Shown piece after piece: positions 7,901 to 35,731 of a DNA stretch of 41,960 nucleotides. This DNA is from Oscillospiraceae bacterium. GTDB taxonomy: Bacteria; Bacillota; Clostridia; Oscillospirales; Ruminococcaceae. Under the pieces are notes generated by a model. That model was not told the origin of the DNA and did no database searches. It worked only from the letters and a program-made list of their open reading frames with translations. The first letter of the stretch is position 1. Each line of letters starts with the position of its first letter. A program made the position numbers and the translations under genes. The DNA lies in assembly GCA_017533485.1 (NCBI GenBank), contig JAFXIC010000069.1, forward strand, positions 1 through 41,960. The letters are read 5' to 3'.

Positions 7901-10900
7901 TGGGTGACGCTGTCTGCTGCTGCAATGAGTCTGGAGCATACCGGCCGTTGGAGTGAACTTGGTGCGGACGGAAAAACGAAGGTATTTGAAGAAGAATATC
8001 CGAAACTGATGGCTGCCGAGCCGACAACCAGGTATCTGAGCTATTCGATTCTTGATAAAGACGGAAAAGTTGTTGCGTCGGAAGCTGTGACGCTGACATT
8101 CAAGGCGGGTTCCGCAGACGTCGAAACGGTTGCGAAAGACGAACAGATCGTTCGTGATATGCGCCAAGAGAAGAAATATATGTATATTCCGGAGGAGACC
8201 GGCATTCAGAAAATCATGTACAGCAATGCAGATGTCGTTATCAGCCACAACGGTCAGTCGGATTATTTTTATCTGGACTGGAGTAAGCAATCCGCTGCAT
8301 ATGAATTTGTTGCGGGCGAGCTCTATATCATTGAATTGCTGCCGAGCGAATGGATTGATTTTGTGGATTATGCCGTATTTATGATTACGGACGAATCGAC
8401 CGAAAAGACGCTTCTGGAAGATTCCTCATACACTGGATACCGCGATGAGGAGGAAAACCATTTCTATGATTCCGATGATTATTCGACGCTCGTGGTTGTG
8501 GGCGCAGAGGGCGAGCTGAAAGAGGGAACCGACTATGAAGTATATGCTTCGGGGTCGAAGGAAGACGGTGTTCTGGTAGATTACATTGTCGGTAAGAATG
8601 ACTACTTTGGTATAATCTGCCATAGGTATTTCATTTATAGAGAAATCGAAGCTGAAACCCGAAGAGAATCGAAAAGTGACCGCTTGTACTGCTCTTTTAC
8701 ACCGGAAGTATCCGGCGAATACAACGTAATTCCTATGTTTTCCGGTTCTGATGGATCTATGGAAGAAGCCAAGAATGAAGGCACCTGGCTGGCAGACTCC
8801 GTAGTTGACCTGTGGATTTCAGAGTATAAAGACGTTTATGAAACGATCGAATCGGAATCGTCCGGCGGCAATATCAGCAGCCAGCGCTGTCAGCTGACAG
8901 CCGGCACAACCTACCATATCGCGGTCGAAGGAACGGGGATTCCGGATTGTGTGACAGTTTCCCTTCTGATTACAAGCGAGAAGAAATCCTTGTATGCGTG
9001 CGACATCAATCAGTATTTCCAGATTGATGAAACCGGCAAGGTAAACGGGTCTGAATGCATGGTAATCGCTCAGGACGGTACGGAACTGCAAGAGAACATT
9101 GATTATCGTCTGGAGTGGTGGTATGACGATCCGGAACAACCGGAATATGTCGTACTCATGGTGACCGGTATGGGCGATTATGTTGGTACTTATGTAGAAG
9201 CGATTCCTACTTATGCCGCGATTGTAAGTGAGCTGGTGTTGGGCGAGTCCTTTACAGTATCGGGTATCCAGGACTTTACGCTGACACTGGATACTGCTTG
9301 TGAGCTTTGCTTGAGCGAGATTAAAAACAGCAACGGAAATGCGCTCGGAAAAGACTGGTTCTCAATTGCATTCATAGATAACAATCTCTACGCGGTAGTC
9401 GGAACCCTGAAAGAGCAGGGTGATACCGTGAACTTAGCCGCAGGCGAGTATTCGCTGACTGTAAACGCAGAGAACATGGACCGCTACGGAGAGCTGAAGG
9501 AATATACCGCAGTGGTGGAAAAGGTTCGGGAATTGAAGGAACTGACGGAATGCAACGTAGACGTAGAAGAGGTTCTCTATTATACCGGCGAAGTCTGCAC
9601 ACCGCAGCTGACGCTTACAACAAGTGATGGTAAAACTTTGAAAGAGGACGTAGATTATGAAGTCTACGTACCGCAGTCGATCCAGACCGGTGAATACACC
9701 GTTGATATCATGGGTATTGGCGACTACGCCGGCTATCTGCAAATCTTCTATTATATTATCAGTGAGCCTACGACAGATACTGTCATTCCTTTGACAGAGC
9801 GTGACAATACAGCAGAAATCACAGCGCCCGGTCGGGATGTCATTTATCGGTTTACGGCGGATTCCGAAGAAACAGTAGTACGCTGGGATACATCGAATCC
9901 GATTGAAATCATTCTGAACCGTGCGGACGGCGAAAATACAGAAGTATATGCGAATTACGGCGGCTTTGAAAACTACTATGTATTTGCAACGGACGTAGGC
10001 TTTGAATATACGCTCCAGATTGGTTTTAAGCATCAATATCAGACCGGTGATATTCCGTTTTCCGTGCTGAAATCGGAAGGCCGTGACCTTGCGAACTGTT
10101 CTGTCATTTCTGAACCCGTACAGAGTTCTTCTGATCTGAAATATGAACTCCGTTATGATGAGGAACTCCTCGTAGAAGGCAAAGACTACTGCGTAAAATA
10201 CGATGGTGGTACAGAGGGTGTCGGCTATGCGGAATACTGCTTTGTCGGTATCGGCGATTACTACGGTGAAACCAACACTTTCTTAACGATCTATCATGAA
10301 GACATGGACGATTACGGTTTCATCGAGCAAGACTACGAATACGCGATTCCTTTGACGGAATCGGAAGAATACCTGTTCCCTGAATATCTGAATGAGTGCT
10401 GGCTCTATAAGATTGAGAACAATGCGAATGAGGATGCGACATATTATCTGAACGCAGAAGAAGAGTCCACTCTGATTTATTGGGATATGCTGTTTTCTGC
10501 TTCGGAGGAAGAGGATGCGTTTATGCCGGAAGACGACTATACGGATGATGGATATGTAGATACGCTTTACCTGTCTGAATTTACGCTGCTGGTATATGAT
10601 TCGGATAAGAAATTCATCGGACAATATGGCTACTCCGGCGTGGAGATCGGCGCAAATGATTATGTATATCTGGTTGTTGTCGCGAACTCTCACGAATCAA
10701 CCTTAGGTATGGAACTGTATCTCAGTTTGGACGATGCAATGCAGGGCGGCACAGATTTCGAGTTTGAATATGTCGAACAAGACGGTATCTGGTATGGAAT
10801 CCTCTTTGGCAGTGATGCCTATATTGTGGGTGTCGAAGAGGGATATCAGGGTGTTGTGCTGAAAGATGTCATTACAGTGGACGGAGAACAGCATCATGTT

Positions 10901-11230
10901 GTCGGCATTGATATGACGGAAGAGACCTTGTATGAACTGTGCGGAAGCTGTCTGTTCTATTACGAGGAAGAATCCGATTGGGAAGATTGCCTTTTGGATA
11001 ACGGCCTGATCGGCGTACCGCTCACAGGCGTTTCCGGTGTTGTCGGCGATCTCAATTGTAATGGAATCGTTGAAGAATGGGATGCAGTCATTCTGAGTGC
11101 TGTCATTTCGGAAGGCACGGGTGTCCTTACAACCGAAGCACTTCTGGAACAGGGCGATACGAACAATGATGGCGTATTGGATCTGATGGATGTCATGTAC
11201 ATCTTCTCCCATAACGAGGCAGCCGGCTGA
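4928..11230 (+). CDS. 2100-residue subtilisin-like protease with LRR region, beta-repeats and C-terminal dockerin
   Basis: Signal peptide near 1-22, then a propeptide-like region to about 220. The S8 catalytic domain (about 235-480) shows the triad in order: Asp252 in AVVDTGI, His287 in NGHGTHCSG and Ser435 in DGTSMATPY, with an oxyanion-hole Asn in AAGNES. A short chitobiase-C-like segment follows (YYTLDGTEPT, about 515-575). Next is a BspA-type leucine-rich region (about 590-960; IGDGAF, IGDSAFKNC, IGASAFSGC). The C-terminal half alternates beta-repeats ending in GxGDYxG-like motifs with PPC-like domains. Residues about 2042-2100 are a dockerin (GDLNCNGIVEEWD, then GDTNNDGVLDLMD). It is probably secreted and docked on the cellulosome, cleaving surface or substrate proteins or maturing partners. 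Very long for the family. Single-gene transcript with its own terminator. Confidence 0.93.
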   Translation: MHQTKQKQLLAFLSSFVLLASTAPQDLAEIVQMSQPVPKASIERFAESIKEMQKPAEDTKRFQTIRFSPEEGILYQDDVRVGKNNGSVVVENGTVRVLSSYAATEAERAAVDETATISLDEAVEKIGCEVRTDKDGNTRVNFPFHASRVIVKSKSKPDMLNALDMSLSYDNLYVLQFATPADAYAACKKYNEMDAVEFAAPDRILKTCATESKPLYEQGVSWGNTAIGSIEYCKELTASGDKLPEITVAVVDTGINYEHSWFENRIADGGMSFVYPDRELPQDYNGHGTHCSGIICSSTADNVKILPIAVLDDGGYGFSSDIYCGMMYAVNQGVDVVSMSFGGGGEDPMLDEAAKAMSKNGILACAAAGNESDDSRNYNVANSPDVIVVSAVDSSLEAAYFTNYGPEICLAAPGVDISSAYHIGTDETISFDGTSMATPYVAACCANVLSAEPDLDNETVKSYLYANAIDIGDPGRDDSFGWGLVNLKDFRFSDVSCSIPKALTLPGEYEEAVDVELGCDTEGASIYYTLDGTEPTAETGILYDGKPIHLEKTTVIRAMAVLGNMKTRFAEFFYVIAGEEFEQAFVIEDGVLKEYRGVMSSLDLSEMTEIKAIGDGAFRNRPFIFEVTLPSSCQTIGDSAFKNCQELEVLHAEAVTKIGASAFSGCENLWEAKFGEVTEIGESSFRDCWWLIELTGLSKLTEIPAYAFYGANVDTDLGSVEVIHEYGLANASIGDIIPWRNIKKIAPHGMEGTASTSVCILDLSNAEELGEYALCGSTFTKYYLPKDLKVIPEGLLMDCMNIQYLSAPSVTEVADYGLAFCSDPFWVGINPIMETDIDFSAITSAGKFAFSGLTVDCALHFDALMNETAAVYTGIWAPQLYLPNVKTIAPTSANTEVEKQTNGIYFYSDVVYLENLERVEDYGIFHAVNLVIGDQFTEFSTKVSDFATIGYTLVGKAGSAVEKAAEELDLKFVEAPSIWMITEGGTYDCYEWVTLSAAAMSLEHTGRWSELGADGKTKVFEEEYPKLMAAEPTTRYLSYSILDKDGKVVASEAVTLTFKAGSADVETVAKDEQIVRDMRQEKKYMYIPEETGIQKIMYSNADVVISHNGQSDYFYLDWSKQSAAYEFVAGELYIIELLPSEWIDFVDYAVFMITDESTEKTLLEDSSYTGYRDEEENHFYDSDDYSTLVVVGAEGELKEGTDYEVYASGSKEDGVLVDYIVGKNDYFGIICHRYFIYREIEAETRRESKSDRLYCSFTPEVSGEYNVIPMFSGSDGSMEEAKNEGTWLADSVVDLWISEYKDVYETIESESSGGNISSQRCQLTAGTTYHIAVEGTGIPDCVTVSLLITSEKKSLYACDINQYFQIDETGKVNGSECMVIAQDGTELQENIDYRLEWWYDDPEQPEYVVLMVTGMGDYVGTYVEAIPTYAAIVSELVLGESFTVSGIQDFTLTLDTACELCLSEIKNSNGNALGKDWFSIAFIDNNLYAVVGTLKEQGDTVNLAAGEYSLTVNAENMDRYGELKEYTAVVEKVRELKELTECNVDVEEVLYYTGEVCTPQLTLTTSDGKTLKEDVDYEVYVPQSIQTGEYTVDIMGIGDYAGYLQIFYYIISEPTTDTVIPLTERDNTAEITAPGRDVIYRFTADSEETVVRWDTSNPIEIILNRADGENTEVYANYGGFENYYVFATDVGFEYTLQIGFKHQYQTGDIPFSVLKSEGRDLANCSVISEPVQSSSDLKYELRYDEELLVEGKDYCVKYDGGTEGVGYAEYCFVGIGDYYGETNTFLTIYHEDMDDYGFIEQDYEYAIPLTESEEYLFPEYLNECWLYKIENNANEDATYYLNAEEESTLIYWDMLFSASEEEDAFMPEDDYTDDGYVDTLYLSEFTLLVYDSDKKFIGQYGYSGVEIGANDYVYLVVVANSHESTLGMELYLSLDDAMQGGTDFEFEYVEQDGIWYGILFGSDAYIVGVEEGYQGVVLKDVITVDGEQHHVVGIDMTEETLYELCGSCLFYYEEESDWEDCLLDNGLIGVPLTGVSGVVGDLNCNGIVEEWDAVILSAVISEGTGVLTTEALLEQGDTNNDGVLDLMDVMYIFSHNEAAG
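8455..10290 (+). repeat. four diverged beta-repeat units within the protease
   Basis: Protein-level repeats starting near 8455, 8990, 9530 and 10080. Each has a stretch like DGKTLKEDVDYEV followed some 25 residues later by a GxGDYxG-like turn (KNDYFG, GMGDYVG, GIGDYAG, GIGDYYG). They resemble the surface-protein repeats of Firmicutes that end in GKGNYTG. The units are separated by other beta-rich segments. DNA identity between units is low, so the duplications are old. Confidence 0.6.
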
Positions 11231-11672: not shown

Positions 11673-11701
11673 TTGACACTTTGATTGGTATATGGTATAA
11701 T
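11673..11701 (+). promoter_or_regulatory. consensus sigma-A promoter of the pilus operon
   Basis: TTGACA at 11673-11678, 17-base spacer, TATAAT at 11696-11701. It matches consensus at all twelve positions, so expression should be strong unless controlled through the leader. About 90 nt separate the expected transcription start from the first start codon. Confidence 0.92.
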
Positions 11702-11709
11702 ATAAACAT

Positions 11710-11737
11710 CATAAAGGTGGTTTCCACCAATTTTATG
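11710..11737 (+). promoter_or_regulatory. 5'-terminal hairpin of the pilus mRNA
   Basis: CATAAAGGTGG (11710-11720), loop TTT, then CCACC, two unpaired A and TTTTATG (to 11737). It begins within a few bases of the predicted transcription start. A stem at the very 5' end commonly protects mRNA from 5'-dependent decay. It lacks a T-run beyond the stem, so it is not a terminator. Confidence 0.6.
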
Positions 11738-11798
11738 AAGTAAACGATGCAGTATATGATTAGAAATGTCGAAACAGATCCCGTAGGAGTTCTTCGAA

Positions 11799-12182
11799 AT
11801 GACGGATAAACAGTTTAAGCGATTGAAGCGCAGCGAAATGATTGAGATCATCTATGAGTACCAGAAGCGAGAAATGGAACTCCAGCATCAGATCGAACGG
11901 CTGGAAGAAAAGCTTCAGGTACAGGAGATGAAAATCAGCGAAACCGGTTCGATTCAGGACGCAATCGCAGTTCTGAACCAAGTGCTTCTGGTTTCCCTGC
12001 AAACCGCCGATCAGTATTTAAAACAGGTCAGAGAGATCTGTGCGGATCAGCAGCAGCAGGCAGCCGAGATGCTCGAACAGGCGAAACAGAAAATGGAATC
12101 CATTGTGGCGGCACAAGAGGCAGTGCAGCAGCAAGCGGATGAAACCGATGCGCAAATGTCGATAGAGAGTGATGTGGAATGA
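11799..12182 (+). CDS. coiled-coil protein, first gene of the pilus operon
   Basis: 127 residues, with GGAG about 9 bases before the ATG. The sequence is almost entirely charged or Gln-rich helix with heptad-like spacing: about residues 8-50 (KRLKRSEMIEIIYEYQKREM, then QIERLEEKL) and about 70-118. There is no signal peptide or membrane segment, so it should be cytoplasmic. It overlaps the signal peptidase gene by four bases (ATGA), which points to translational coupling and a joint role. I do not recognise a named family. A scaffold or regulator for pilin secretion is an inference from position only. Confidence 0.8.
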   Translation: MTDKQFKRLKRSEMIEIIYEYQKREMELQHQIERLEEKLQVQEMKISETGSIQDAIAVLNQVLLVSLQTADQYLKQVREICADQQQQAAEMLEQAKQKMESIVAAQEAVQQQADETDAQMSIESDVE

Positions 12183-12754
12183 ATAACACCAATGAAATGA
12201 AACAGGTTGCGGTTCCGTCTGTTGAACAGGTGGAAAACGAGCTGAAAAAGATTCGCTATAAGGATTTATTCCGGAAAACACTAAGCAGCACCGTTGCAAC
12301 ACTGATTGTTGTAGCCGCAATTGCCGTGCTGATATCGACCTTGTTCTTACCGGTCATACAGGTTTCCGGAAACAGTATGGAGCCGAGTCTGAAAGACGGC
12401 GACATTCTGGTTCTTGTGAAAACAGATAAATGTGATTACGGCGATTTATGCTGTGTATCGTGGCAGAATAAGCTGCTGCTGAAACGTGTCATCGGCTTGC
12501 CGGGGGACAGCATCACAATCGACAGCGACGGCAATGTATACGTCAATGACGAGCTGCTCGATGAACCGTATATCACAGAAAAAAGCCAGGGCAACTGTGA
12601 AATAGAATTCCCCTTTACCGTACCGGATAACCGGATCTTCATCCTCGGAGATGCCAGAGAATCTTCTGTGGACAGCAGAAGTTCAGCAATCGGCTGTATC
12701 GAGCAGGAACAGATTATCGGAACGGTTTTGTGGAATGTGTGGAACGCAAAGTAG
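12179..12754 (+). CDS. lepB: type I signal peptidase dedicated to the pilus operon
   Basis: 191 residues. A cytoplasmic N-terminus (about 1-36) is followed by one membrane segment (about 38-60). The catalytic domain carries all family boxes: GNSMEPSLKDGD with nucleophile Ser66, LLLKRVIGLPGDSI with general base Lys102, and ILGDARESSVDSRS near the C-terminus. It cleaves Sec signal peptides on the outer face of the membrane. Its place directly before two sortase substrates suggests that it processes the pilins, as SipA-type peptidases do in other pilus islands. It starts inside the stop of the coiled-coil gene (ATGA overlap). The long N-terminal cytoplasmic extension could contact that coiled-coil protein (inference). 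Confidence 0.95.
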   Translation: MNNTNEMKQVAVPSVEQVENELKKIRYKDLFRKTLSSTVATLIVVAAIAVLISTLFLPVIQVSGNSMEPSLKDGDILVLVKTDKCDYGDLCCVSWQNKLLLKRVIGLPGDSITIDSDGNVYVNDELLDEPYITEKSQGNCEIEFPFTVPDNRIFILGDARESSVDSRSSAIGCIEQEQIIGTVLWNVWNAK

Positions 12755-12802
12755 AGAGGCAGCGTTCAAAAAATAGATAGAAAGGATGGGTGGTGAGATC
12801 GG

Positions 12803-15800
12803 ATGAGCAGCTTTATGGATAATCTGTACGATAAGATTCAGCAAAATTCTGCCAAGCGACATAGAACCGTTTCATTGCTGATGGTAATGTCGATATTCGT
12901 AACATCAGGCGTTGTATGGGTTTTACGCGGTACCGGTATTACAATGGTAAATGATCCGATCTGTGATGTGGAAGAACACGAACATTCCGCCGACTGCATC
13001 CGAAAAACGCTGATCTGCATGGTGGAAGATGAAACGCATATCCATGAGGACGCGTGTTATCTGACCGAAGTGATATGTCCGAAGCAGGAACATATTCACA
13101 TTCCAGCCTGCTATACTGACCAGCTTCTCGACGGCTATATCGTTCAGGAAAATCCTGAACCGGAAAATTATATCGAGCTTGAATCCGCAGAAGTTTCTGA
13201 TGCCGAAGAACCATCTTCGGAGGATGTGGAATCCGAGGAATCCGGTCTTCCGGATCCGGAACAAGCCGACAGCAATGACAAAGACGAAAATGAATCCGAT
13301 ACGGATGAAAATAGTGACGATAAAAATGACATAGAGCAAACCGATGATGATGAAACAGCTTCGGATGACAGTGAAGCATCGGAGGAAGAAGCGGAGGGAC
13401 CGCTGCTTGAACATGGTACAAATTACCTGCAAAGTGCAGAGCAGGCGGGCTTAGGTATTGTGACCACAGCCGATAACCGAGCGGATGGTATTATTATCCA
13501 CCTGTTTGATTACGGAACCGAGGGGCTTGACCACGGCAGAAGTGATTATCGGAATCCTGCATATGTCGGTATCAATGAGGGAAAGAACTTACAGGATGAC
13601 ATTCTGTTCTTCTCCTATGGTACGCCGTCCGGTGAGGCAGAAAATTACGTGCCTACGAAGAATAACTATTCCGGCGATTATAATGCGGATCACCTGGTCA
13701 GCGGAAACCGCCCGGTTCAGGGCATCGTCAATAATACCTTGACAAATGGTTTTCCGACGATTGCCGGTTCCAACCACAGTTTGGATTACTTGTTCGATAT
13801 GAACGATATCAATGCGAGTGCGAGTGATCCGACAAAGATTGTATACGAGGATATCAATCATTTCCTCCAGAAGGATGCAACCGGAAAATACTTCTTCGAC
13901 AGCAGCGACAATTATGCATATTACAATCCGAATCAGGGTGACAGAGGAAACTTTACGCTGTATAGCGGAACATTCGATATCCAGAATGATGACCATCATA
14001 CACAGGGCGGAAGACCGTATAATCCCGCGATTCGCAATGCGGATCTTCTGGAGAATGAACGCTATAAAACCGAGTTAAGTCCGATGAAAATCGGCTTTTT
14101 CCCGTTCGATGCATTTGATGATTCCAAGGTAGACCCGAACTTCAATGCAACCCGCATCGAAAATGAAGACGGTTCTTCCAGCGATCAGGCAATTTATAAC
14201 CACCACTTCGGTATGACAATGTCTGCAAACTTTGTTGTTCCGAAGGACGCGAACGGAAATACCAACGGTCAGTTCAATAATCAGGACATCGTCTTTAATT
14301 ACAGCGGTGACGATGATATGTGGGTCTTTGTCGATGATAAGCTGATTCTCGATATCGGCGGTATCCACGAACCGACTGCCGGCAGCATCAATTTTACACA
14401 GAATAAAGTCCGCGTTCAGGACAACGCATATGGTACCATTGATGGTGGAGACGGAAATAAATATATCGAAACTACCGTATCCGCAATGCTTGGCATTTCT
14501 GATGCAGAATACTGGAGCTGGTTTACGGGTCAGCCGCATACCATTAAGATGTTCTATATGGAGCGCGGCGGCTGTTATTCGAACCTGGCGATGGATTTCA
14601 ACCTTCCGACCGTTAAGACAATTGACGTGACGAAGAATCTCGACCAGGGCAGCGGAACAGGATATGAAAATGAAATGTTCCGTTACGAGCTCTGGACGAA
14701 GGCATACGATGCCGCAGAATATACGAAATATGACGGCGTGTATTACGTAAATAACACGCAGTTCCGGACAGATAATGGTATCTTCTTCCTGAAACACGGT
14801 CAGACAGGCTCGTTCTTTGACGGTCTGGATACCATCGAGTCCTATTATGTCAAGGAAGTTGCTGTGGATAACCAGTTGATTTCGGATGTCACGGTAAACG
14901 ATAAGTCTTATCAGATTACTGACCAGTCCGAAATCAGCAGCCCGGAGTATAATTTCACGGATACCAAGGTTACCAGTGGTGAGATCCGGTTCCAGAACAA
15001 GATTCGGGAAACCTATACCGACCTTGCCGTTCAGAAAAAATGGGTCGGCGGAGATCAGAGTGCGATTGATAAAATCCAGTTCCGATTGTTCCAGTCGAAG
15101 AACGGCGGCGAAAAAATCCCTGTAATTGTAGAAGGTCAGAGAACCTTCGCCATCAAACAGGAAAACGGACAATGGGTTTCCAAATCCTTTACACATCTTC
15201 CTTCTGAATACGGAAGAGATCAGTACACGTATACGGTAGATGAAGTGTATGTGCCGAATGGGTATTCGTCCAGTACCGCATCTCCTGTGATGATCAACGG
15301 TGTCGCAACGATTGTCATTACGAACACTTCCCGTGAGAATTCACAGCTTCACGTAAAAAAGGAATGGTATGATAATCAGGGGAACCTGATGACCACACCG
15401 CCGCAAACATCCGTGAAGTTTAAGATCAAGCGTTCCTATCTCCCGTATGAAGAACCGAAAGAGACGCGCTTTATCGTCCAGACGATCAATGAAACAACCG
15501 GAATGCAGACCGGCTCTTGGACAGCAGACGGCGTATATGTCGGCGGAAGCGTAGAGTTTTCGCTGAACATTCTGAACGGTATTGATGTACGAAGCGTTAC
15601 AATCGACGGAAGACCGGTATCATCGACCTACGGAATCTATGAAGCGAAGGATATCCAGGAAAACTCCGTTGTAACCGTATACTATACGGATAAATACGAT
15701 GATACATCAAAATCCGCGGAAGCCTCTTATATACTCTACCACTCGTTCTCCGGTACAACCGATGGTTGGGGCGCGTTCGGACGGAGAGAATATAGGAGCG

Positions 15801-17893
15801 ATGATGGAACTGTAAGCTATGTCTATCCGACCGTTGCGACAAATGGTCATGCATCATATGCCAAGAACGACGGTCTGGCAGTTGAACGAAATTATAATGA
15901 TGCGTTCTATATTAAATCCTCAACAAAGGTTGAAGAAACCTCCGGCAAAAGCAGCGGTGCCTATTTCCCGATCGATACCGATGTGCTGATTCCCGGAATG
16001 TCGTATAGCTTCAGCCTGTATGTAAAGTCTGTTGATGCAACACAAAATGTAGCATTGACATTGACCTATACCGACCTGGAGGGGCAGGCAAGATATGTAC
16101 GAATCGGTCAGGCATCGGCTTCTTCCGGTAGTTGGAGTCAGCTTGCGAATACCAATTTTACTATGCCGGATGATATTGATACTTCTAAGGATATTATTAT
16201 TTATACCGAAACACCGGATGAAACCGACGATAGTCTCCACGATTTCTTCATGGATGAATTTGTTGTCGCACTCGGCGGTACACAGATTAATGTCCAGCCG
16301 GTCAATGTCAGTCCCGGAAGTGGTAAGACATGGCATCTCGGTTATCTGAACCTTACGAAAAATTCGGGAACGATGACAGTCGTTCATAGCAGTGACTTTG
16401 AGACTTCATTGAATTCTTGGACGGCATTTGATGATAATTCCAATATTGTTCAGATTGAGCGCGTCAATGATGCATATGTAGGAAATGGCGCGGTGCGTGT
16501 ATCAAATAGAACAGAATTCCACCATGGCATCCAGCTTCCCGATAATTACAATGTTTTCGAAAAGGGAAAGACGTACAGCCTGAGTGCATATGTCAAGACC
16601 GAAAATAACAGTTCCTCCACTCCGTTTAAGTTTACGCTGAAATATAAGAATACGAACGGAGAGGATGCATATCATCAGGTTGGCATTGCATATGCGGACG
16701 GTGCGGATAAATGGACGCGGCTTTCGGCATCCAACTTCCGGATTCCCGATAATGTCGATATGACGCAGAATGTAATTCTCTACATCGAAAGTCCGGAGAA
16801 TACGGCACCGTTTTATGTCGATCAGGTTGTAATCGCAACAGGCGAAAATCTTGAAATCAGTACGGATCTTTATTCGGCTGAAACGAAAATCGCCCAGGTA
16901 TCATCGCTGAACTTCCCGAGAAATCGTTTTGACGGTTCCCTGGATGGATGGCGAAGACGCGGTGATGCACAGGCCGAAAATAATTCCGGAACTGTATATG
17001 CCGGATCGAGTTCTGTAAGTGTTACGAATCGACAGCAGACATGGCAAGGTATTGAATTACCATTGACGGACTTTGAAAAGTATAAGCCCGGAACAACCCA
17101 CAATTTCAGTATTTACGTTAATCCAAATGAAACAACAACGATGAAAATGACGCTGACATATACGCCGAAAGGATCTGGTTCAGCCGTCTATCCGACAGTT
17201 GTAGAAATGTCAAATGTTCCGGCAGGACAATGGACACAGCTCGCGAATACAGCATATAAGATACCGGATGATGTAGATACCGAAAAAGATGTGCTTCTTT
17301 ATATCGAAGCACTGAGCAGCAATACATCATTCTTGGTAGACGAATTTGTAGAAGGACCGGTGGGACGAAAGGTAACCGTAAACCCCGGTGACGGCAGCCT
17401 CCAGATGGATACGCTGACCGTAAACCTGAATGCGGATACCGCAATCCCGCCCTCACCTAAGACATCGGATACGATGCTGACCGAGTATATCCACAACGGA
17501 AACCTGACACCAATTGAATTCGAGCTTGGATCGACAGGCGATTGGAAGATGGGATTCCGGATGAGCTCTAAGAGTGGACTCACAAGCGGAGAAGCCAATT
17601 ATGGCGTTGTCAACGGAAATCCGACGCTGTACGAAGACCCCAATTGCAATTATTATTATGAGATTGAGGAAGTCAGCGTACCGGATGGATATGTGGTATC
17701 TTACGACAAGCAGGGTTCATCTTCCACAACGGACGATGCACCGATGCTGATCAAAAATAAATACAGTGCATACGAGCTGCCGCCTACGGGAGGCACAGGA
17801 ACAGCAGGCTATTATATGATCGGCGTGTTCCTGTTAGTGCTCAGTGTCCTGTATGGATGCTACGGAAATAAGCGGGAAAGGAGGCAGCAATGA
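12803..17893 (+). CDS. 1696-residue LPPTG-anchored pilus tip adhesin with fibro-slime, Cna-B-like and three CBM22-like modules
   Basis: The first ATG after an in-frame TGA. A membrane/signal segment lies at about 26-44. Residues about 53-110 hold three C-x(4-6)-HxHxxxC motifs. Residues about 120-200 are a highly acidic spacer. A fibro-slime/PA14-like domain spans about 400-610 (GDDDMWVFVDDKLILDIGG). Cna-B-like domains follow (about 735-850, plus one before the anchor with YYYEIEEVSVPDGY). Three CBM_4_9/CBM22-like modules lie at about 972-1162, 1192-1352 and 1369-1522 (RVSNRTEFHHGI, VTNRQQTWQGI). The C-terminus has LPPTGG (about 1660), a hydrophobic segment and a basic tail, the sortase signal. 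It would be placed at the tip of the pilus polymerised from the next gene product. Binding to plant polysaccharide is inferred from the modules. Confidence 0.92.
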   Translation: MSSFMDNLYDKIQQNSAKRHRTVSLLMVMSIFVTSGVVWVLRGTGITMVNDPICDVEEHEHSADCIRKTLICMVEDETHIHEDACYLTEVICPKQEHIHIPACYTDQLLDGYIVQENPEPENYIELESAEVSDAEEPSSEDVESEESGLPDPEQADSNDKDENESDTDENSDDKNDIEQTDDDETASDDSEASEEEAEGPLLEHGTNYLQSAEQAGLGIVTTADNRADGIIIHLFDYGTEGLDHGRSDYRNPAYVGINEGKNLQDDILFFSYGTPSGEAENYVPTKNNYSGDYNADHLVSGNRPVQGIVNNTLTNGFPTIAGSNHSLDYLFDMNDINASASDPTKIVYEDINHFLQKDATGKYFFDSSDNYAYYNPNQGDRGNFTLYSGTFDIQNDDHHTQGGRPYNPAIRNADLLENERYKTELSPMKIGFFPFDAFDDSKVDPNFNATRIENEDGSSSDQAIYNHHFGMTMSANFVVPKDANGNTNGQFNNQDIVFNYSGDDDMWVFVDDKLILDIGGIHEPTAGSINFTQNKVRVQDNAYGTIDGGDGNKYIETTVSAMLGISDAEYWSWFTGQPHTIKMFYMERGGCYSNLAMDFNLPTVKTIDVTKNLDQGSGTGYENEMFRYELWTKAYDAAEYTKYDGVYYVNNTQFRTDNGIFFLKHGQTGSFFDGLDTIESYYVKEVAVDNQLISDVTVNDKSYQITDQSEISSPEYNFTDTKVTSGEIRFQNKIRETYTDLAVQKKWVGGDQSAIDKIQFRLFQSKNGGEKIPVIVEGQRTFAIKQENGQWVSKSFTHLPSEYGRDQYTYTVDEVYVPNGYSSSTASPVMINGVATIVITNTSRENSQLHVKKEWYDNQGNLMTTPPQTSVKFKIKRSYLPYEEPKETRFIVQTINETTGMQTGSWTADGVYVGGSVEFSLNILNGIDVRSVTIDGRPVSSTYGIYEAKDIQENSVVTVYYTDKYDDTSKSAEASYILYHSFSGTTDGWGAFGRREYRSDDGTVSYVYPTVATNGHASYAKNDGLAVERNYNDAFYIKSSTKVEETSGKSSGAYFPIDTDVLIPGMSYSFSLYVKSVDATQNVALTLTYTDLEGQARYVRIGQASASSGSWSQLANTNFTMPDDIDTSKDIIIYTETPDETDDSLHDFFMDEFVVALGGTQINVQPVNVSPGSGKTWHLGYLNLTKNSGTMTVVHSSDFETSLNSWTAFDDNSNIVQIERVNDAYVGNGAVRVSNRTEFHHGIQLPDNYNVFEKGKTYSLSAYVKTENNSSSTPFKFTLKYKNTNGEDAYHQVGIAYADGADKWTRLSASNFRIPDNVDMTQNVILYIESPENTAPFYVDQVVIATGENLEISTDLYSAETKIAQVSSLNFPRNRFDGSLDGWRRRGDAQAENNSGTVYAGSSSVSVTNRQQTWQGIELPLTDFEKYKPGTTHNFSIYVNPNETTTMKMTLTYTPKGSGSAVYPTVVEMSNVPAGQWTQLANTAYKIPDDVDTEKDVLLYIEALSSNTSFLVDEFVEGPVGRKVTVNPGDGSLQMDTLTVNLNADTAIPPSPKTSDTMLTEYIHNGNLTPIEFELGSTGDWKMGFRMSSKSGLTSGEANYGVVNGNPTLYEDPNCNYYYEIEEVSVPDGYVVSYDKQGSSSTTDDAPMLIKNKYSAYELPPTGGTGTAGYYMIGVFLLVLSVLYGCYGNKRERRQQ
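15720..17370 (+). repeat. three tandem CBM22-like modules in the tip adhesin
   Basis: Units near 15720-16290, 16380-16860 and 16910-17370. Units 2 and 3 open with a DFETSLNSW or RFDGSLDGW type strand and contain an (S/T)NR motif; all three contain a LYVK/AYVK/IYVN strand, a W-(S/T)-(Q/R)-L stretch and close with FxxDEFV or FYVDQVV. Unit 1 has a longer insertion. The same pattern is found in the dockerin esterase (DFESSLSGW, VTGRTAAWNG) and in the CE4 deacetylase (FESGLDGF, TSGRTEAWNG). Confidence 0.75.
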
Positions 17894-17964
17894 TGTGAAC
17901 TCCTGACAGCTCTGTAGTACGAACTCAAAATCAAAAAACAAACATAAAAAATGGAGGTATTATT

Positions 17965-19542
17965 ATGAAATCTTTGAAAAAGTCTTTGGTCACATTATTG
18001 GCCTGCACAATGGCGATCGCTCCCTGTATGGTAGGGAATATGCCCGTATCCGCTGCGGGAGAAACAGCATCTATCGCAATTACCGTGACTGATAAAGAGT
18101 CTCATACTTATCAGGCTTATCAGCTTTTCTCCGGCGACATTGTTAGCGGAGAGTTATGGAATATTGACTGGGGCACTGGTGTTGATAAAGCTAATTTGCT
18201 TAAAGCATTACAGGATGCAACCAATGAAGCTTTGGTGAACAAATTTAAGGATTGTACATCTGCGTATGATGTAGCCGGTGTTCTCGAAGCAAATAAAGCC
18301 ACAGGAGGATTTAGTGAAGCTTTTGCTGAAATCGTTTCCAAGCATCTGACCGGTACTCCGGCAGAAGCATCGGGTAAAGATTCTGTTACAATTAATAATC
18401 TGACTCCGGGCTACTATTTTGTAAAGGATGCGGACGGTTCTCTTAATGGCGCAAACGGTGCGTACACACGCTTTATTATGAAGCTTCTGAGCGGCACAGA
18501 AACTGCAACCGCAAAATCCGATCTTCCGACTCTGGATAAGGTCATCAACGAGGATGGTGGTATTGATGCGAATACTGCCAGCATCGGTGATAATGTAGAG
18601 TTTAAGCTGACCTCTAAGGTTCCGGATATGACCGGTTATAACAAGTATTTCTTCGTTGTGAATGATAAATTGTCCGAAGGATTTACATTCAATGATGATG
18701 TTAAGATTAAGATTGGAGATTCTGAACTGGCTGATACTGCTTTCTATGTTACAGATTTGGGTGGCGGTGAGATTAAAATCGTAATTAATGACTTTATCAA
18801 CTATCAGAGTCCAAAGAATCAAACGATTGAGATTACATACTCTGCTGAACTGGATGAAAATGCGAATCTGGGTACAGAGGGCAACACCAACGTTGCTAAC
18901 TTGGTTTATTCCAACAACCCGAACTATGAATATCAGGGTGATCCCTCGAAGCCGAACGAGCCGTATACTCCCGAAGATGGCACTCCCGATAATCCTGATA
19001 CTCCGAATTTTGATGAAAGCAAGCCCGATCCTACCGGCGATACCCCTGAAATCAAAACCGTTACTTATGCAACCACATTGCAGATCATCAAGGTAGACGG
19101 CGATAACACCAACACAAAACTGCCGGGCGCAAAATTCAAGCTGGAAAAGAAGAATAGTGAAGGCAATTATGTTCAGGTTGGTGAACTGATTACAACCGGA
19201 ACTGACGGTCTGGCAACATTTGCAGGTCTTGGCGAAGGCATCTACCGTATTACTGAAGAAGAACCTCCCACAAATTATAACGGTTTGACTGGTTCGATTG
19301 AAGTAACTCTGGATGCTACCGCTACTGTTACAAATGTTACTTGGAGTAAGCAAGATGGTCCTGATGACCTCGTATTTGAAGATAATACCTTCAAGATTAC
19401 CATTGAGAACAACAAGGGTTCTTCGCTGCCGACGACCGGTGGTATGGGTACAACCCTGATCTACGTACTGGGCGGAATGCTGGTACTCTGCTCGATCGTT
19501 CTGATTATCACCAGAAAGAGAATGGAGTATCGCCAGTTCTGA
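17965..19542 (+). CDS. LPTTG major (backbone) pilin
   Basis: 525 residues behind GGAGG. Signal peptide about 1-31 (ends PVSAAGE). An N-terminal pilin domain is followed by LPTLDKVINEDGG, in which Lys192 matches the pilin-motif lysine used by class C sortases to link subunits. A FimA/D2-like isopeptide domain follows (about 195-320), then a Pro/Asp-rich spacer (about 325-360) and a Cna-B domain (about 365-480) with the E-box YRITEEEPP. The sorting signal is LPTTGG at about 488, a hydrophobic segment and the basic end KRMEYRQF. Subunits are expected to be covalently joined through Lys192 and the Thr of LPTTG and stiffened by internal isopeptide bonds. The upstream gap of 71 nt has no terminator. 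Confidence 0.96.
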   Translation: MKSLKKSLVTLLACTMAIAPCMVGNMPVSAAGETASIAITVTDKESHTYQAYQLFSGDIVSGELWNIDWGTGVDKANLLKALQDATNEALVNKFKDCTSAYDVAGVLEANKATGGFSEAFAEIVSKHLTGTPAEASGKDSVTINNLTPGYYFVKDADGSLNGANGAYTRFIMKLLSGTETATAKSDLPTLDKVINEDGGIDANTASIGDNVEFKLTSKVPDMTGYNKYFFVVNDKLSEGFTFNDDVKIKIGDSELADTAFYVTDLGGGEIKIVINDFINYQSPKNQTIEITYSAELDENANLGTEGNTNVANLVYSNNPNYEYQGDPSKPNEPYTPEDGTPDNPDTPNFDESKPDPTGDTPEIKTVTYATTLQIIKVDGDNTNTKLPGAKFKLEKKNSEGNYVQVGELITTGTDGLATFAGLGEGIYRITEEEPPTNYNGLTGSIEVTLDATATVTNVTWSKQDGPDDLVFEDNTFKITIENNKGSSLPTTGGMGTTLIYVLGGMLVLCSIVLIITRKRMEYRQF

Positions 19543-19580
19543 TTGAAACAAACTAAGGAAACCGACATTTAGCATAGATA

Positions 19581-19609
19581 CAGTGGGAGAACGGAATGTT
19601 CTCCCACTG
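19581..19609 (+). promoter_or_regulatory. strong hairpin between pilin and sortase genes
   Basis: CAGTGGGAGAAC pairs perfectly with GTTCTCCCACTG around GGAAT (12 bp). No T-run follows, so it is not a usual intrinsic terminator. Short flanking AGATA/TATCT may extend the stem. Position between the structural pilin and its sortase suggests an mRNA-stability or processing element that keeps pilin message above sortase message (inference). Confidence 0.65.
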
Positions 19610-19636
19610 CCTATATCTGATAGCAAGGAGCTATGA

Positions 19637-20503
19637 ATGAAACGCTATATCATTAACATCATACTCATCGTAACAATGCTGATTGGAATCGGACTACTGC
19701 TTTATCCCTCTATCAGTAATTATCTCAATTCGAAAGTTCAGACAAAGGTCATCTCGACCTATACGGATGCCACGAAAGATCTGTCGGAAAATGAAAATCA
19801 AGCTTTGATTGACGCCGCACATGAATATAACCAACGTCTTGCGTCAACGAGCGGTGCATTTTATGATCCATCATCGGTTTCCGGATATGATTCGACGCTG
19901 AATGCGGCAGGTACCGGAGTTATGGGGTATCTGACGATTGAAAAGATTGGTGTTGAGCTTCCGGTTTATCATGGCGTTGATGATGATGTACTCCAGATTG
20001 CGGTCGGACATCTCCCCGGTACGAGTCTGCCTGTCGGCGGCGAAACAACCCACGCTGTCATGTCGGGGCATAGAGGGCTTCCGGGCGCAAGACTTTTTAC
20101 CGATCTGGATAAGATGGAAATCGGCGATACGTTTTATATTACGGTTCTGAAAGATGTATATACCTATCAGGTTGACCAGATTAAAACGGTCACACCCTTT
20201 GAAGTCGATGATCTCCAGCTCGAACGCGGTAAGGATTATTGCACATTGTTTACTTGCACACCATACGGTATCAATACGCATCGGATGCTGGTACGCGGTG
20301 TTCGCATCGAAACGATTGAAAAAAAGAAGATCTATATCAAGAACGAGGCATTCCGGATCTCGCCGTATATTGTCACACCGCTTGTAGCGACGCCGATGCT
20401 GGTCGTTCTTCTGATTTATGTCATGTTCAGCGGAAGGAAAACGGTCCGTACACATCGTGACAGTAAGCGATTGAAGAAACAGCAGGAAAAGAAGAATGCC
20501 TGA
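19637..20503 (+). CDS. class C (pilin-polymerising) sortase
   Basis: 288 residues, with AGGAG six bases before the ATG. An N-terminal membrane segment (about 5-24) and a C-terminal one (about 240-262, IVTPLVATPMLVVLLIYVMF) are typical of class C. The catalytic residues are His145 in MSGHRGLPGA, Cys207 in LFTCTPYGINTHR and Arg216. A lid-like segment FYDPSSVSGYD precedes the barrel and resembles the class C DP(F/W) lid, with Ser in place of the aromatic residue. It cleaves LPXTG between Thr and Gly and joins subunits through the pilin lysine. Anchoring of the finished pilus to the wall probably needs a housekeeping sortase encoded elsewhere. It is the last gene of the operon. Confidence 0.97.
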   Translation: MKRYIINIILIVTMLIGIGLLLYPSISNYLNSKVQTKVISTYTDATKDLSENENQALIDAAHEYNQRLASTSGAFYDPSSVSGYDSTLNAAGTGVMGYLTIEKIGVELPVYHGVDDDVLQIAVGHLPGTSLPVGGETTHAVMSGHRGLPGARLFTDLDKMEIGDTFYITVLKDVYTYQVDQIKTVTPFEVDDLQLERGKDYCTLFTCTPYGINTHRMLVRGVRIETIEKKKIYIKNEAFRISPYIVTPLVATPMLVVLLIYVMFSGRKTVRTHRDSKRLKKQQEKKNA

Positions 20504-20549: not shown

Positions 20550-20587
20550 AAAAAAACCCCCGACTGTCGTTTGAACAGTCGGGGGTT
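20550..20587 (-). terminator. intrinsic terminator of the CE4 deacetylase gene
   Basis: A perfect 11-bp GC-rich stem (CCCCCGACTGT/ACAGTCGGGGG) with seven T on the minus strand. In the plus direction the stem lacks a T-run, but it may still help to end the convergent pilus transcript, for which I see no other terminator. Confidence 0.92.
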
Positions 20588-20612: not shown

Positions 20613-22079
20613 TTAGCGAACGTAGTCGTAAACCTGACCCTTGTACATGGTCTTGCCGCTTGCAGCGAACATTTCGGATACGCTTACATTCTGCCAGCCA
20701 TTCTGCTTGAGGAACGGCATAATTTCTTCCATAGCAGCAGCGGTTGTCGCATAGTTTTCGTGTGCAAGAACAACCTTACCGTTGAGAGAGCCGTTGCTGA
20801 CGCCGCTCTTAATCTTGTTGACGATATCGTATGTGGAAGCGTTGTTCCAGTCTTCAGTATCAAGACCGCAGTTTACCATCGGAGTGGGGATTGCCTGTTT
20901 GACGGTATCGTTTACGGAGAGGTACGGAGGACGAACGATAAAGTCCTGCTGACCGGTGAGGGCACGAAGCTTTTCAGCACATTTGTTGTACTCATTCTGA
21001 ATAGAGTAAGAGTCCTTTTGGGTGAGATAGGGGTGGCTCCAGGTGTGGTTTGCGATTTCGAAGCCACGCTCATAAGCCTGAGTAATTTCGTTCTGGTTGC
21101 TGCCGTTGATGCGCTCGCCCCAGTAGAAGAAGGTTGCATGGAAGCCGGACTTTGTGAGAGCATCGTGGATTCGCTGCGCAGCGCTGTTGTTTCCGATACC
21201 GACCGGACCGTCGTCGAAGGAGATTGCGACCATCGGCTTCGAAGAATCAATCCAAGAAATGTCAACCGGCGGAACCCAAGCGTTGCCATTCATTTTACCG
21301 CCGTCAGCTTTCGGTGCTGTTGTGGTTGTGGTCGTCGTTGTCGTAGTTGTGGTTGTTGTATACTTTTCGGGGTAGAGGACTCTTCTGCGGAGGAGGGAGA
21401 GGTCGGAAGCAGTAATGATGCTGTTGCCGTCCAGATCCGCAGTTTCCATATAAACGGTAGCGTCTTTACCCTGTAAGAAATTCAGCAATTCTACAACATC
21501 CTGTTTGTTTACATTTTCGTCCATGTTGACATCACCCAAAGCATATTGTGTCGGTACAGCAGCCTTGACGGAGTCTACGTAGAATTCACACAAATCCTCG
21601 GTGGTTTCAACATAGAGATAGAAGTTTGTGGAACCGGCAGGAAGCTGATAAGCAGAGTTTGCGAGTACGGTCCAGGAATCGCTGGCAACAGTTTCGGTTA
21701 CGATCTGTGCATAGCTGGTGGTACCGGTGGAGTCGTCATACTGGAGAGACATCTGCATGACAACGGGGCTGCCGCTGTTCTGCTTGACTGCACAGGAGAT
21801 GGAGTAGGTTTCGCCGGAAACCCAGCCCGTACCGAGTGCAGTAACCGGACCGTTCCATGCCTCGGTACGACCGGAGGTTGCGATGGAATAGGAGCCTTCG
21901 TAAGCTTCGGCAGAAGTACGTTCAACGGTTTCGCTTGCACGCGCGGAGAATCCGTCAAGACCGGATTCAAAGCCTGCATCAATCAGGGTCTGTGCAGCAA
22001 AGACGTTGCTTGTGATAATGCTGGTAGCGATGATGCTGGAGCATACCACAACGGAAAAAACCTTACGGAATGAATTCAT
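20613..22079 (-). CDS. secreted CBM22-like - dockerin - CE4 polysaccharide deacetylase
   Basis: 488 residues with AGAGG 9 bases before the ATG. Signal peptide about 1-28 (ends VFAAQ). A CBM_4_9/CBM22-like module spans about 30-170 (FESGLDGF, SGRTEAWNG, LYVETTEDLCEFYVD). A dockerin lies at about 178-238 (GDVNMDENVNKQD, then ADLDGNSIITASD). A 14-Thr linker leads to a NodB/CE4 domain (about 275-488): SFDDGP, where the Asp pair is a catalytic/metal site, HTWSH, where the two His bind metal, and RPPYLS. CE4 enzymes remove acetyl groups from xylan, chitin or peptidoglycan. The dockerin and CBM favour acetylxylan as the substrate (inference). It converges on the pilus operon and has a long leader. 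Confidence 0.94.
   Translation of the reverse strand: MNSFRKVFSVVVCSSIIATSIITSNVFAAQTLIDAGFESGLDGFSARASETVERTSAEAYEGSYSIATSGRTEAWNGPVTALGTGWVSGETYSISCAVKQNSGSPVVMQMSLQYDDSTGTTSYAQIVTETVASDSWTVLANSAYQLPAGSTNFYLYVETTEDLCEFYVDSVKAAVPTQYALGDVNMDENVNKQDVVELLNFLQGKDATVYMETADLDGNSIITASDLSLLRRRVLYPEKYTTTTTTTTTTTTTTAPKADGGKMNGNAWVPPVDISWIDSSKPMVAISFDDGPVGIGNNSAAQRIHDALTKSGFHATFFYWGERINGSNQNEITQAYERGFEIANHTWSHPYLTQKDSYSIQNEYNKCAEKLRALTGQQDFIVRPPYLSVNDTVKQAIPTPMVNCGLDTEDWNNASTYDIVNKIKSGVSNGSLNGKVVLAHENYATTAAAMEEIMPFLKQNGWQNVSVSEMFAASGKTMYKGQVYDYVR
21320..21361 (-). repeat. poly-threonine linker codons
   Basis: Fourteen consecutive Thr codons (ACA, ACC, ACT and ACG mixed) joining the dockerin and the CE4 domain. 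Mixed codon use means that this is selected at the protein level rather than a slipping trinucleotide repeat. Such linkers are often O-glycosylated in cellulosomal enzymes. Confidence 0.85.
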
Positions 22080-34621: not shown

Positions 34622-35425
34622 TTATTTCAGCGGCATATCGGACTGATCCAGGAGTCTTGCAACGAGCTTGAGGATTGCAACAGCATCCTTACCGTCGATG
34701 TTTGAGTCAGCCTGGCAGTTTGCATTGCTCTTACCGGCAGCAGTCAGAGAAACGGTAGTATCTTCAGCTGCGATACGGCTTACGAGGATAACGTCAGAGA
34801 TATCAACAAGACCGCTGCAGTCAGCGTCGCCCCAGAGGGTAGCACCGACATCGCTGCCCTTAATGGTAACGCTGCCATCGGTAGCGTTTACGGTAGCGGG
34901 AGTGCCGGCATTCTCGAAAACGATTGCGCTGTTAGCGGAACCAGCCTGCGGATAAGCCTCACGAGCAACAGGCTCGATTTTGAGAGCAGAAGTACCGGGC
35001 TGTGCATCGCTCTTTACGGTACCGGAGATGGTGAGGAATACACCGCTCTGCTTGATCCAGTTGCTGGAATCCTCAAGACCGGTAGACCAGATGACAACAT
35101 ACTGATCGGAGCCCTTGTAGGTAGTGAAAACGGTATCACCGAGGTCGCCTTCCTTAGAAGCAGCGCCGGTGTCGCCGACAGTACCGAGGCTGACGCCGGT
35201 AATATCGAGAACGGAAGAATCGTAGCCGATTGCGAAGTCAACGGAATTGATACCGGAAGACGGTACGGAAGCGAGAGAAACATCAACCGTGAAGTTCTCG
35301 CCAGCTTTTACTTCTGCATTGCCGATGCTGACAGAAACAGAATCAGCAGCATTAACGACTGCGGACATAGAGAGCGCGGTCATAGCCATTGCCATCAGGC
35401 CGGAAATAAGTTTCATTTTTTTCAT
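34622..35425 (-). CDS. ScaC-like cohesin-dockerin adaptor scaffoldin
   Basis: 267 residues. Two close ATGs (35431 and 35425) follow GGAGG; the second gives proper spacing (9 bases) and a clean signal peptide, MKKMKLISGLMAMAMTALSM, cut after VNAAD. Residues about 27-170 form one cohesin (VSVSIGNAEVKAGENFTVDV, SVDFAIGYDSSVLDI, SGVFLTISGTVKS). Residues about 195-267 are a dockerin with calcium loops DADCSGLVDISD and ADSNIDGKD. Size and order (cohesin then dockerin, about 28 kDa) match R. flavefaciens ScaC, which docks on ScaA and changes which enzymes can bind. Unlike the classical sca cluster, no other scaffoldin lies alongside. The name scaC is not assigned because orthology cannot be tested here. 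Confidence 0.93.
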   Translation of the reverse strand: MKKMKLISGLMAMAMTALSMSAVVNAADSVSVSIGNAEVKAGENFTVDVSLASVPSSGINSVDFAIGYDSSVLDITGVSLGTVGDTGAASKEGDLGDTVFTTYKGSDQYVVIWSTGLEDSSNWIKQSGVFLTISGTVKSDAQPGTSALKIEPVAREAYPQAGSANSAIVFENAGTPATVNATDGSVTIKGSDVGATLWGDADCSGLVDISDVILVSRIAAEDTTVSLTAAGKSNANCQADSNIDGKDAVAILKLVARLLDQSDMPLK

Positions 35426-35731
35426 GTTCATACTCCTCCAAAGTATAAAGAGTGATAAGCATTGCGGCAAGACATTAAAAAGATTTGCTTGTCGCCGCCA
35501 CACGTGAATCAGAAGGTCCCCTTCTTCCTTCTATTTCACATTATGCTACTTTAATCTTAACTGAATCTGAAAGAAATAGCAATGACATATTGTATCATGT
35601 TTATGTCGGATTGCACATTTTTTGCAAATCAGCAAGATAAACTGTGACAAGATTGCGGATTCGGCGCAAGAAATTCCAAATGCCACAATGGAATTTTTAC
35701 GCTTTGCACGATACTTGTCCCATTAAATATT
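35426..35731 (-). promoter_or_regulatory. long leader of the cohesin-dockerin gene
   Basis: About 300 nt without a gene on either strand. On the minus strand it contains a stem of type GCGGCGAC/GTCTTGCCGC (35465-35498, with bulges), a GACATA/TATGTC inverted repeat (about 35584-35608), and otherwise AT-rich sequence. No full terminator is seen, unlike the CE4 leader. A weak internal promoter is possible. Confidence 0.4.

Follow-up and report, generated by a model that had tools for sequence, protein, structure and literature searches.

The pilus operon

We analysed a contig of 41,960 nucleotides (JAFXIC010000069.1, positions 1 to 41,960 of the forward strand; hereafter the window) from an Oscillospiraceae bacterium of the Ruminococcaceae, whose draft genome is 2.12 Mb in size and 88% complete and in which the window is contig 55. 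The subject of this report is an operon of the class C sortase pilus type within the window, which encodes a large putative tip adhesin with three carbohydrate-binding modules (CBMs) assigned to family CBM22. Five genes follow one another on the plus strand and encode a coiled-coil protein of 127 residues (11799-12182), a signal peptidase I of 191 residues (12179-12754), the putative tip adhesin, a 1696-residue protein with an LPPTG motif (12803-17893), an LPTTG backbone pilin of 525 residues (17965-19542) and a class C sortase of 288 residues (19637-20503). A preliminary description of this DNA had proposed the same five-gene operon, and both the open reading frames and the family scores, which exceed their cutoffs, uphold it. 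The signal peptidase scores 119.8 bits against TIGR02227 (cutoff 47) and 114.3 bits against Peptidase_S26. The tip protein was recognised from its open reading frame and several family matches. The product of the first gene shows weak coiled-coil matches that stay below cutoff, and a homologue of it is found 5' of the tip gene in related operons.

A sigma-70-type promoter, TTGACA and TATAAT with a 17-base spacer and a TG before the -10 element, lies ahead of the first gene (11673-11701, plus strand). It agrees with the consensus at 12 of 12 positions and is the sole such match among the 25 promoter-like sites detected (19.7 expected). A promoter of the form TTGAC...TATAAT is found at most 500 bases from the first gene in 20 of the 21 orthologous loci in which the gene start was located. 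Since the signal peptidase gene overlaps the coiled-coil gene by 4 bases and the subsequent gaps are of only 48, 71 and 94 bases, the five genes are likely to be transcribed as one unit. Between the sortase gene and a convergent deacetylase gene there is a terminator-like hairpin of 13-14 pairs, 8 of them G-C (20555-20587). Its T-run sits on the minus strand while the plus-strand tail is weak, and it would therefore suit the deacetylase gene better than the sortase gene.

The backbone pilin combines a sorting signal of the LPXTG type with isopeptide-type domains. It scores 79.4 bits against TIGR04226 (cutoff 30) and 77.3 bits against GramPos_pilinBB (cutoff 30.5), and matches the PDB chains 9uvr (3.6e-50) and 9uvm (4.6e-48); against the SpaH/EbpB model NF033902 it reaches 77.2 bits, below the cutoff of 95. 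Conservation among orthologues suggests K184, in AKSDLPTLDK, as the candidate pilin-motif lysine (18514-18516, plus strand): a lysine stands 1-5 residues ahead of PTxxK in 22 of 28 orthologous pilins, and the remaining six are without PTxxK. The sortase is placed in class C by its score against NF033745 (262.4 bits, cutoff 160) and matches PDB entry 4d7w at 2e-63. Four further sortases are encoded by the genome. The genome also has a second pilus operon (L175, 885-10500, and L172), which encodes a signal-peptidase-like protein, a 2803-residue protein with the LPXTG-like terminal signal MPSTG, a pilin, a sortase, a 363-residue LPQTG protein and a further sortase.

Architecture of the tip protein

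From its N-terminus the tip protein consists of an unusual signal sequence, Cys/His repeats, a fibro-slime head, a Cna_B domain, three CBM_4_9 modules and the LPPTG sorting motif, which was read directly (residue 1659; 17777-17791, plus strand). A Pfam scan of the protein detected neither a catalytic domain nor a dockerin. The three Cys/His repeats, also read directly, occupy residues 54-103 (12962-13111, plus strand). They have the approximate form C-x-x-x-EH-x-H-x-x-x-C and come after the unusual signal sequence (SLL.VLS.FV.SGV.W.L...TM); similar repeats are present in most of the orthologous tips shown and also open the large protein of the second pilus. It is possible that these repeats bind metal.

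The head (residues 215-609; 13445-14629, plus strand) is a fibro-slime domain, scoring 55.4 bits against TIGR02148 when taken alone and 50.5 bits within the whole protein (cutoff 45). Its PA14 match stays below cutoff (20.8 bits against 24). When 84,980 species genomes were scanned with the head, 79 loci were obtained (with 80 of the 84 matches kept). All 53 of the heads that were aligned match TIGR02148, PA14 is found in 47 of the 53 at E <= 0.01, and the motif S-G-D-D-D-x-W, here SGDDDMW at residues 501-507, is invariant among them. Then comes the Cna_B stalk domain (residues 742-842; 15026-15328, plus strand; PF05738, 31 bits, cutoff 22.3). The preliminary description mentioned neither Cna_B nor this fibro-slime/PA14-like head, which is a second candidate binding domain. 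Because of the way tip pilins are joined, the head would be expected to lie outermost in the mature pilus with the CBM modules closer to the shaft.

The CBM22 modules and their ligand residues

Against PF02018 (CBM_4_9) the tip protein scores 150.5 bits (cutoff 25.9) in three stretches. Module 1 (residues 963-1164; 15689-16294, plus strand as for all three) accounts for 46.7 bits at 15914-16219, module 2 (residues 1182-1352; 16346-16858) for 76.4 bits at 16382-16798 and module 3 (residues 1364-1525; 16892-17377) for 64.5 bits at 16925-17311. The two dockerin enzymes of the window with which the tip modules had been said to share a related CBM indeed have CBM_4_9 as well. The Pfam family CBM_4_9 does not resolve CAZy families. 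Six PDB sequences, each with the name xylanase Y or xylanase C, matched the three-module stretch with E <= 1; module 1 alone matched three, all named xylanase Y. Matches of the single modules include 1h6x (2.4e-9) and 1dyo (3.5e-9) for module 1, 4xuo (2.1e-10) for module 2 and 1dyo (2.9e-18) for module 3. A profile of 30 tip CBM regions matched eight different PDB sequences with E <= 0.01, and these too bear the name xylanase Y or C. We take all eight to be CBM22-bearing xylanases, namely C. thermocellum Xyn10B and P. barcinonensis Xyn10C, with none identified as CBM4, 9 or 16. Since the PDB matches are identified in this way, the tip modules are CBM22 by sequence, which is how the profile comparison called for in the preliminary description turned out. 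A passage of PMC8280721 gives just these two species as sources of CBM22 structures. A predicted model of the three-module region (564 residues) is nearly all beta, with a mean predicted local distance difference test score (pLDDT) of 79.8 and a predicted template modelling score (pTM) of 0.52.

The ligand residues of the reference CBM22 are R25, W53, Y103 and E138; R25 and E138 are the positions mutated in PDB entries 1h6x and 1h6y, as read from the printed alignments. Module 3 of the tip retains all four (R1386, W1414, Y1463 and E1502). The same holds for 11 of 12 modules taken from the genome's dockerin proteins. These 12 are drawn from the 18 matches to CBM_4_9 that lie outside the tip, with L014 and the five weakest (L017-L021) omitted, which may flatter the proportion. 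For all 12, the contig has a dockerin match in an equally long frame. Of 64 modules from 32 tips, 53 retain E138 and 58 have an aromatic residue at position 103. At position 25, 36 modules have N or Q and 53 are without R (one of them through a gap); position 53 varies. When the 137 columns of the tip modules are ranked by conservation, position 138 is 8th, 103 is 15th, W53 is 48th and position 25 is 82nd. An aromatic residue at 53, an aromatic residue at 103 and E138 occur together in at least one module of 24 of the 32 tips, and the R. flavefaciens strains FD-1, XPD3002, SAb67 and Y1 have the full ligand set in at least one module. In FD-1 module 1 begins close to a frame break, which leaves a gap at its position 25. 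Four loci with weak matches (L142, L153, L163 and L166; E 0.006 or worse) were removed ahead of these counts. The module borders used here and in the tree come from the third iteration of a hidden Markov model (HMM) in which the seed L006 was read on the wrong strand; the locus scan was repeated without L006. It looks as though the CBM22 cleft of the tips has been retained but re-tuned.

History of the modules

A tree was built from 91 modules. It places 29 of the 30 enzyme rows on one starred branch; the 17 modules from other genomes were picked through their matches to module 3 of this tip and called enzyme modules without a scan of each protein. A second starred branch holds the first modules of all the two-module tips (26 of 26) together with module 1 of this tip. 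The 26 last modules are divided between a third group, which is not starred (22), and a fourth (3), and the remaining one pairs with module 3 of this tip. Modules 2 and 3 of this tip fall between the tip and enzyme groups, module 2 alone and module 3 paired with a module of L114; module 3 has 40% identity both to this L114 partner and to the module of the dockerin protein L001. The single module of L093 pairs with an enzyme row, L012 (95/69). A constraint that holds all 30 enzyme rows together was not rejected (p-AU 0.369). The tree was rooted at the midpoint only and was drawn without FD-1.

Since tip and enzyme modules form separate groups, adhesion and catalysis would seem mostly to use cousin modules and not copies. 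The earlier proposal that related modules would serve both roles is supported in that they share the CBM22 family, although most of the tip modules are a lineage apart from those of the enzymes. Recent borrowing from cellulosomal enzymes was considered and is unsupported for most tip modules, the enzyme rows and first tip modules being on separate branches. For module 3 of this tip and the single module of L093 a closer tie to enzyme modules is possible.

Distribution of the CBM22 pilus

An HMM made from 11 modules of this genome's dockerin proteins and 1dyo found CBM22 modules in 30 of the 79 loci (weakest L104, 3e-5). R. flavefaciens FD-1, where three modules lie in a separate piece of a broken frame, brings this to 31. 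In this draft (L092, 1539-6498) the CBM22 part is in another frame from the rest of the tip, which may be a draft error or a true break. At each locus only the frame covering the head was scanned. In 47 loci nothing rose above noise in this frame (best 8.5 bits), though 11 of these frames reach the contig end and modules beyond it are possible; L098 has a short frame without CBM22 modules. Pfam agrees for 29 of the 30 tip CBM regions submitted, including that of the window; at L101 it gave no CBM_4_9 at E <= 0.001 over the whole tip.

The titles of 27 of the 31 CBM22 loci are Ruminococcus or Oscillospiraceae, and the other four are Bacilli, Lachnospiraceae, Bacillota and Clostridiales. In L165 and L167, which are distant loci although their titles are also Ruminococcus, the scanned frame gave no CBM22. 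Among named strains the modules are present in R. flavefaciens FD-1, YAD2003, Y1, ND2009, ATCC 19208, 007c, XPD3002 and SAb67. All four partner genes stand beside the tip gene in 25 of the 31 loci, and five of the other six are at contig ends; at L111 the signal peptidase is on the same contig and was masked by a too-early start call. The search for the same operon in other ruminococci, which had been suggested earlier, thus recovers it in R. flavefaciens and relatives. Its gene families and gene order mark it as an operon for a pilus of the class C sortase type, and it is conserved across these bacteria.

Within the genus (30 genomes, 58-99% complete, so that some absences may be gaps) a tip orthologue is present in 10 genomes; 11 match at 1e-20, the eleventh (G029) being a paralogue without CBM22. 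The tips of eight of the nine other members have CBM_4_9 over the Pfam cutoff and the ninth (L059, the same contig as L113) is picked up by the local HMM at 4e-9. We considered whether CBM22 is a general trait of the pilus proteins of these genomes and rejected this, as neither the 2803-residue protein of the second pilus operon nor the G029 fibro-slime paralogue gave a match.

Relation to the cellulosome

Across the genome 11 matches to cohesin and 78 to dockerin were found, and the two dockerin enzymes with CBM_4_9 are encoded in the window at 2433-4721 (plus strand) and 20613-22079 (minus strand). No cohesin or dockerin was found by Pfam in the five operon proteins at E <= 0.01, and the genome scans gave no match to either between 11799 and 20503. 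As neither is found in the operon, nothing observed ties the pilus to the cellulosome, and we would class the unit as a sortase pilus with a CBM22 tip adhesin and not as part of the cellulosome. All 30 genus genomes have cohesins and 10 of them have the pilus, several of these genomes being incomplete. Of the idea that the pilus works beside the cellulosome, only the coexistence of the two in genomes therefore stands.

Cohesins over cutoff occur in 10 of 11 genomes with a CBM22 tip versus 3 of 14 (L116, L120 and L156) with a tip lacking CBM22, in a comparison of 25 genomes hand-picked from the 79 loci (Fisher p 0.001, with related genomes treated as independent). The exception among the CBM22 tips is L101, which has one cohesin match under cutoff and whose module has K, S, N and R at the four ligand positions.

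Two other genes of the window were seen in passing. A 2100-residue subtilase with BspA-type leucine-rich repeats (4928-11230, plus strand) has a weak C-terminal dockerin match of 21.2 bits (cutoff 22.9). A small protein with one cohesin (34625-35503, minus strand) has a C-terminal dockerin-like sequence, seen by eye only, and resembles the adaptor scaffoldin ScaC.

Discussion

On balance we consider it probable that the unit makes a sortase-assembled pilus which fastens the cell to the hemicellulose of the plant cell wall. The case for a pilus is strong, by family, gene order and conservation. A plant glycan as ligand is likely, given one well-kept module, a cleft that is partly kept in most tips, and the lineage. 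A single strong promoter would drive all five genes, from that of the coiled-coil protein to that of the class C sortase. Going by what is usual for these families, the sortase would cut the LPPTG motif of the tip protein and link it to the pilin lysine, pilins would then be added serially through their LPTTG signals and another sortase of the cell would fix the base of the pilus to the wall. In the tip the head would face outward, followed by the CnaB-type stalk and then by the three CBM22 modules. Module 3 would most likely hold xylan or a related beta-glucan in its CBM22 cleft, while modules 1 and 2, though related, would be re-tuned or weak.

Several findings weigh against this reading. 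At the ligand positions module 1 has F992, S1050, Y1098 and E1136 and module 2 has F1209, H1240, Y1290 and E1329, so that only Y103 and E138 are retained in either. The plant-polysaccharide-binding pilus of the preliminary description is supported by the CBM22 identity of its modules and by the class C sortase pilus operon, but with the four ligand residues in only one module of three. The full set is found in 8 of the 64 tip modules, and 8 of the 32 tips are without any module that has an aromatic residue at 53, an aromatic residue at 103 and E138. Nor is a CBM proof of binding: a passage in PMC8280721 describes one CBM9 that bound none of the natural carbohydrates tested. The comparison of cohesins is not an independent one, given the shared titles of 27 of the 31 loci. 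With 23 cohesin matches in its genome, L116 (1247-5041) has an operon of the same kind whose tip carries Cna_B and DUF7601 but no CBM22, and 20 of the 30 genus genomes have cohesins but no tip orthologue that was found. These last two observations led us to reject a strict co-occurrence of pilus and cellulosome.

The substitutions in the cleft might mean that the CBM22 modules are now mainly spacers in the stem of the tip and that the fibro-slime/PA14-like head does the binding. The head with its invariant SGDDDxW is common to all 53 aligned homologues, including tips in which a Cna_B or DUF7601 stem replaces CBM22, and the loss of R at position 25 in most tip modules would fit a spacer. A fibro-slime protein of Fibrobacter succinogenes is, according to passages in PMC8092306 and PMC3079729, a 180-kDa cellulose-binding protein. 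The conservation of E138 and Y103, however, goes beyond the apparent need of a spacer, and module 3 and seven other tip modules retain all four residues; we think it unlikely that the modules have become spacers. Alternatively, the re-tuned clefts could bind a glycan other than xylan, such as host mucin or the glycans of other bacteria. The frequent N or Q at position 25 and the variable position 53 would be compatible with this, as would the presence of relatives of the head in gut bacteria, for example Kandleria, Pseudoramibacter and Bifidobacterium. The concentration of CBM22 in 31 of the 79 loci, 27 of them titled Ruminococcus or Oscillospiraceae, and the cohesins in 10 of the 11 CBM22-tip genomes examined argue against this, and make a host or bacterial ligand distinctly improbable in our view.

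Whether the large protein is in the pilus at all also has to be considered, as it has its own LPPTG and the genome has four other sortases, so that it could be a wall-anchored surface protein that is never incorporated. Tip pilins, however, bear sorting signals and are joined first, according to a passage in PMC11389406, and in 25 of the 31 loci the large protein has as neighbours a single backbone pilin, a single class C-like sortase, the coiled-coil protein and the signal peptidase. We regard a protein that stays out of the pilus as very unlikely.

A more speculative extension of the hemicellulose-binding pilus, to which we give little credence for now, is a two-headed adhesin. The head would bind one glycan and the CBM22 clefts of the stem would be tuned differently in each strain (N or Q in place of R at position 25; F, Y or N in place of W at position 53), so that each cellulosomal Ruminococcus might read a different hemicellulose pattern and the pilus might distribute strains over different plant tissues ahead of the action of the cellulosome.

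Should the preferred reading of a hemicellulose-binding pilus be correct, a conserved CBM22 sortase pilus would add a covalent, long-reach adhesin, and such a pilus may be an unrecognised means of holding on to fibre in many Ruminococcus. As cultured R. flavefaciens strains carry the pilus, it could be tested directly with small recombinant modules. Passages in PMC3672088, PMC4081043 and PMC8092306 attribute the fibre adhesion of ruminococci to CttA, type IV pili and the CBMs of enzymes. A literature search by titles and the start of abstracts, in which subscription papers were mostly outside coverage, found no report of a sortase pilus with CBMs among the papers listed. In the main text of the FD-1 genome paper (PMC2721979) a term search gave no occurrence of sortase, pilus, pili or LPXTG, and the passages on sortase in PMC4081043, PMC2930009 and PMC5301203 concern ScaE.

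Comparison with known systems

With SpaCBA of L. rhamnosus GG, pneumococcal pilus 1 and Ebp the operon shares a class C sortase, an LPXTG pilin with CnaB-type domains, a large LPXTG adhesin and a linked signal peptidase. To our knowledge, the tip adhesins of known sortase pili bind host or bacterial ligands. The unit described here differs from these three in its CBM22 tip and in having only two LPXTG proteins and one sortase, with no separate basal pilin seen in it. The CBM22 modules of C. thermocellum Xyn10B and P. barcinonensis Xyn10C are of the same sequence family, and module 3 has kept their four ligand residues; in contrast to these xylanases the tip protein has no catalytic domain or dockerin that was found, and most tip modules are a separate lineage with changed cleft residues. 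Type IV pili are non-covalent assemblies, and Fibrobacter is Gram-negative with fibro-slime proteins that are not known to have a sortase signal. CttA of R. flavefaciens is likewise a cell-surface adhesin with two CBMs from the same bacterial group but is attached by an X-dockerin on ScaE, as described in passages of PMC4081043 and PMC5301203, whereas the tip protein here has an LPXTG signal and no dockerin match. For R. albus and R. flavefaciens, type IV pili have also been proposed to serve fibre adhesion, though they are built by a different assembly machine and the passages in PMC3672088 and PMC8092306 report no CBM in them. The fibro-slime proteins of Fibrobacter succinogenes share TIGR02148 with the head of the tip protein, and one of them binds cellulose according to passages of PMC8092306 and PMC3079729.

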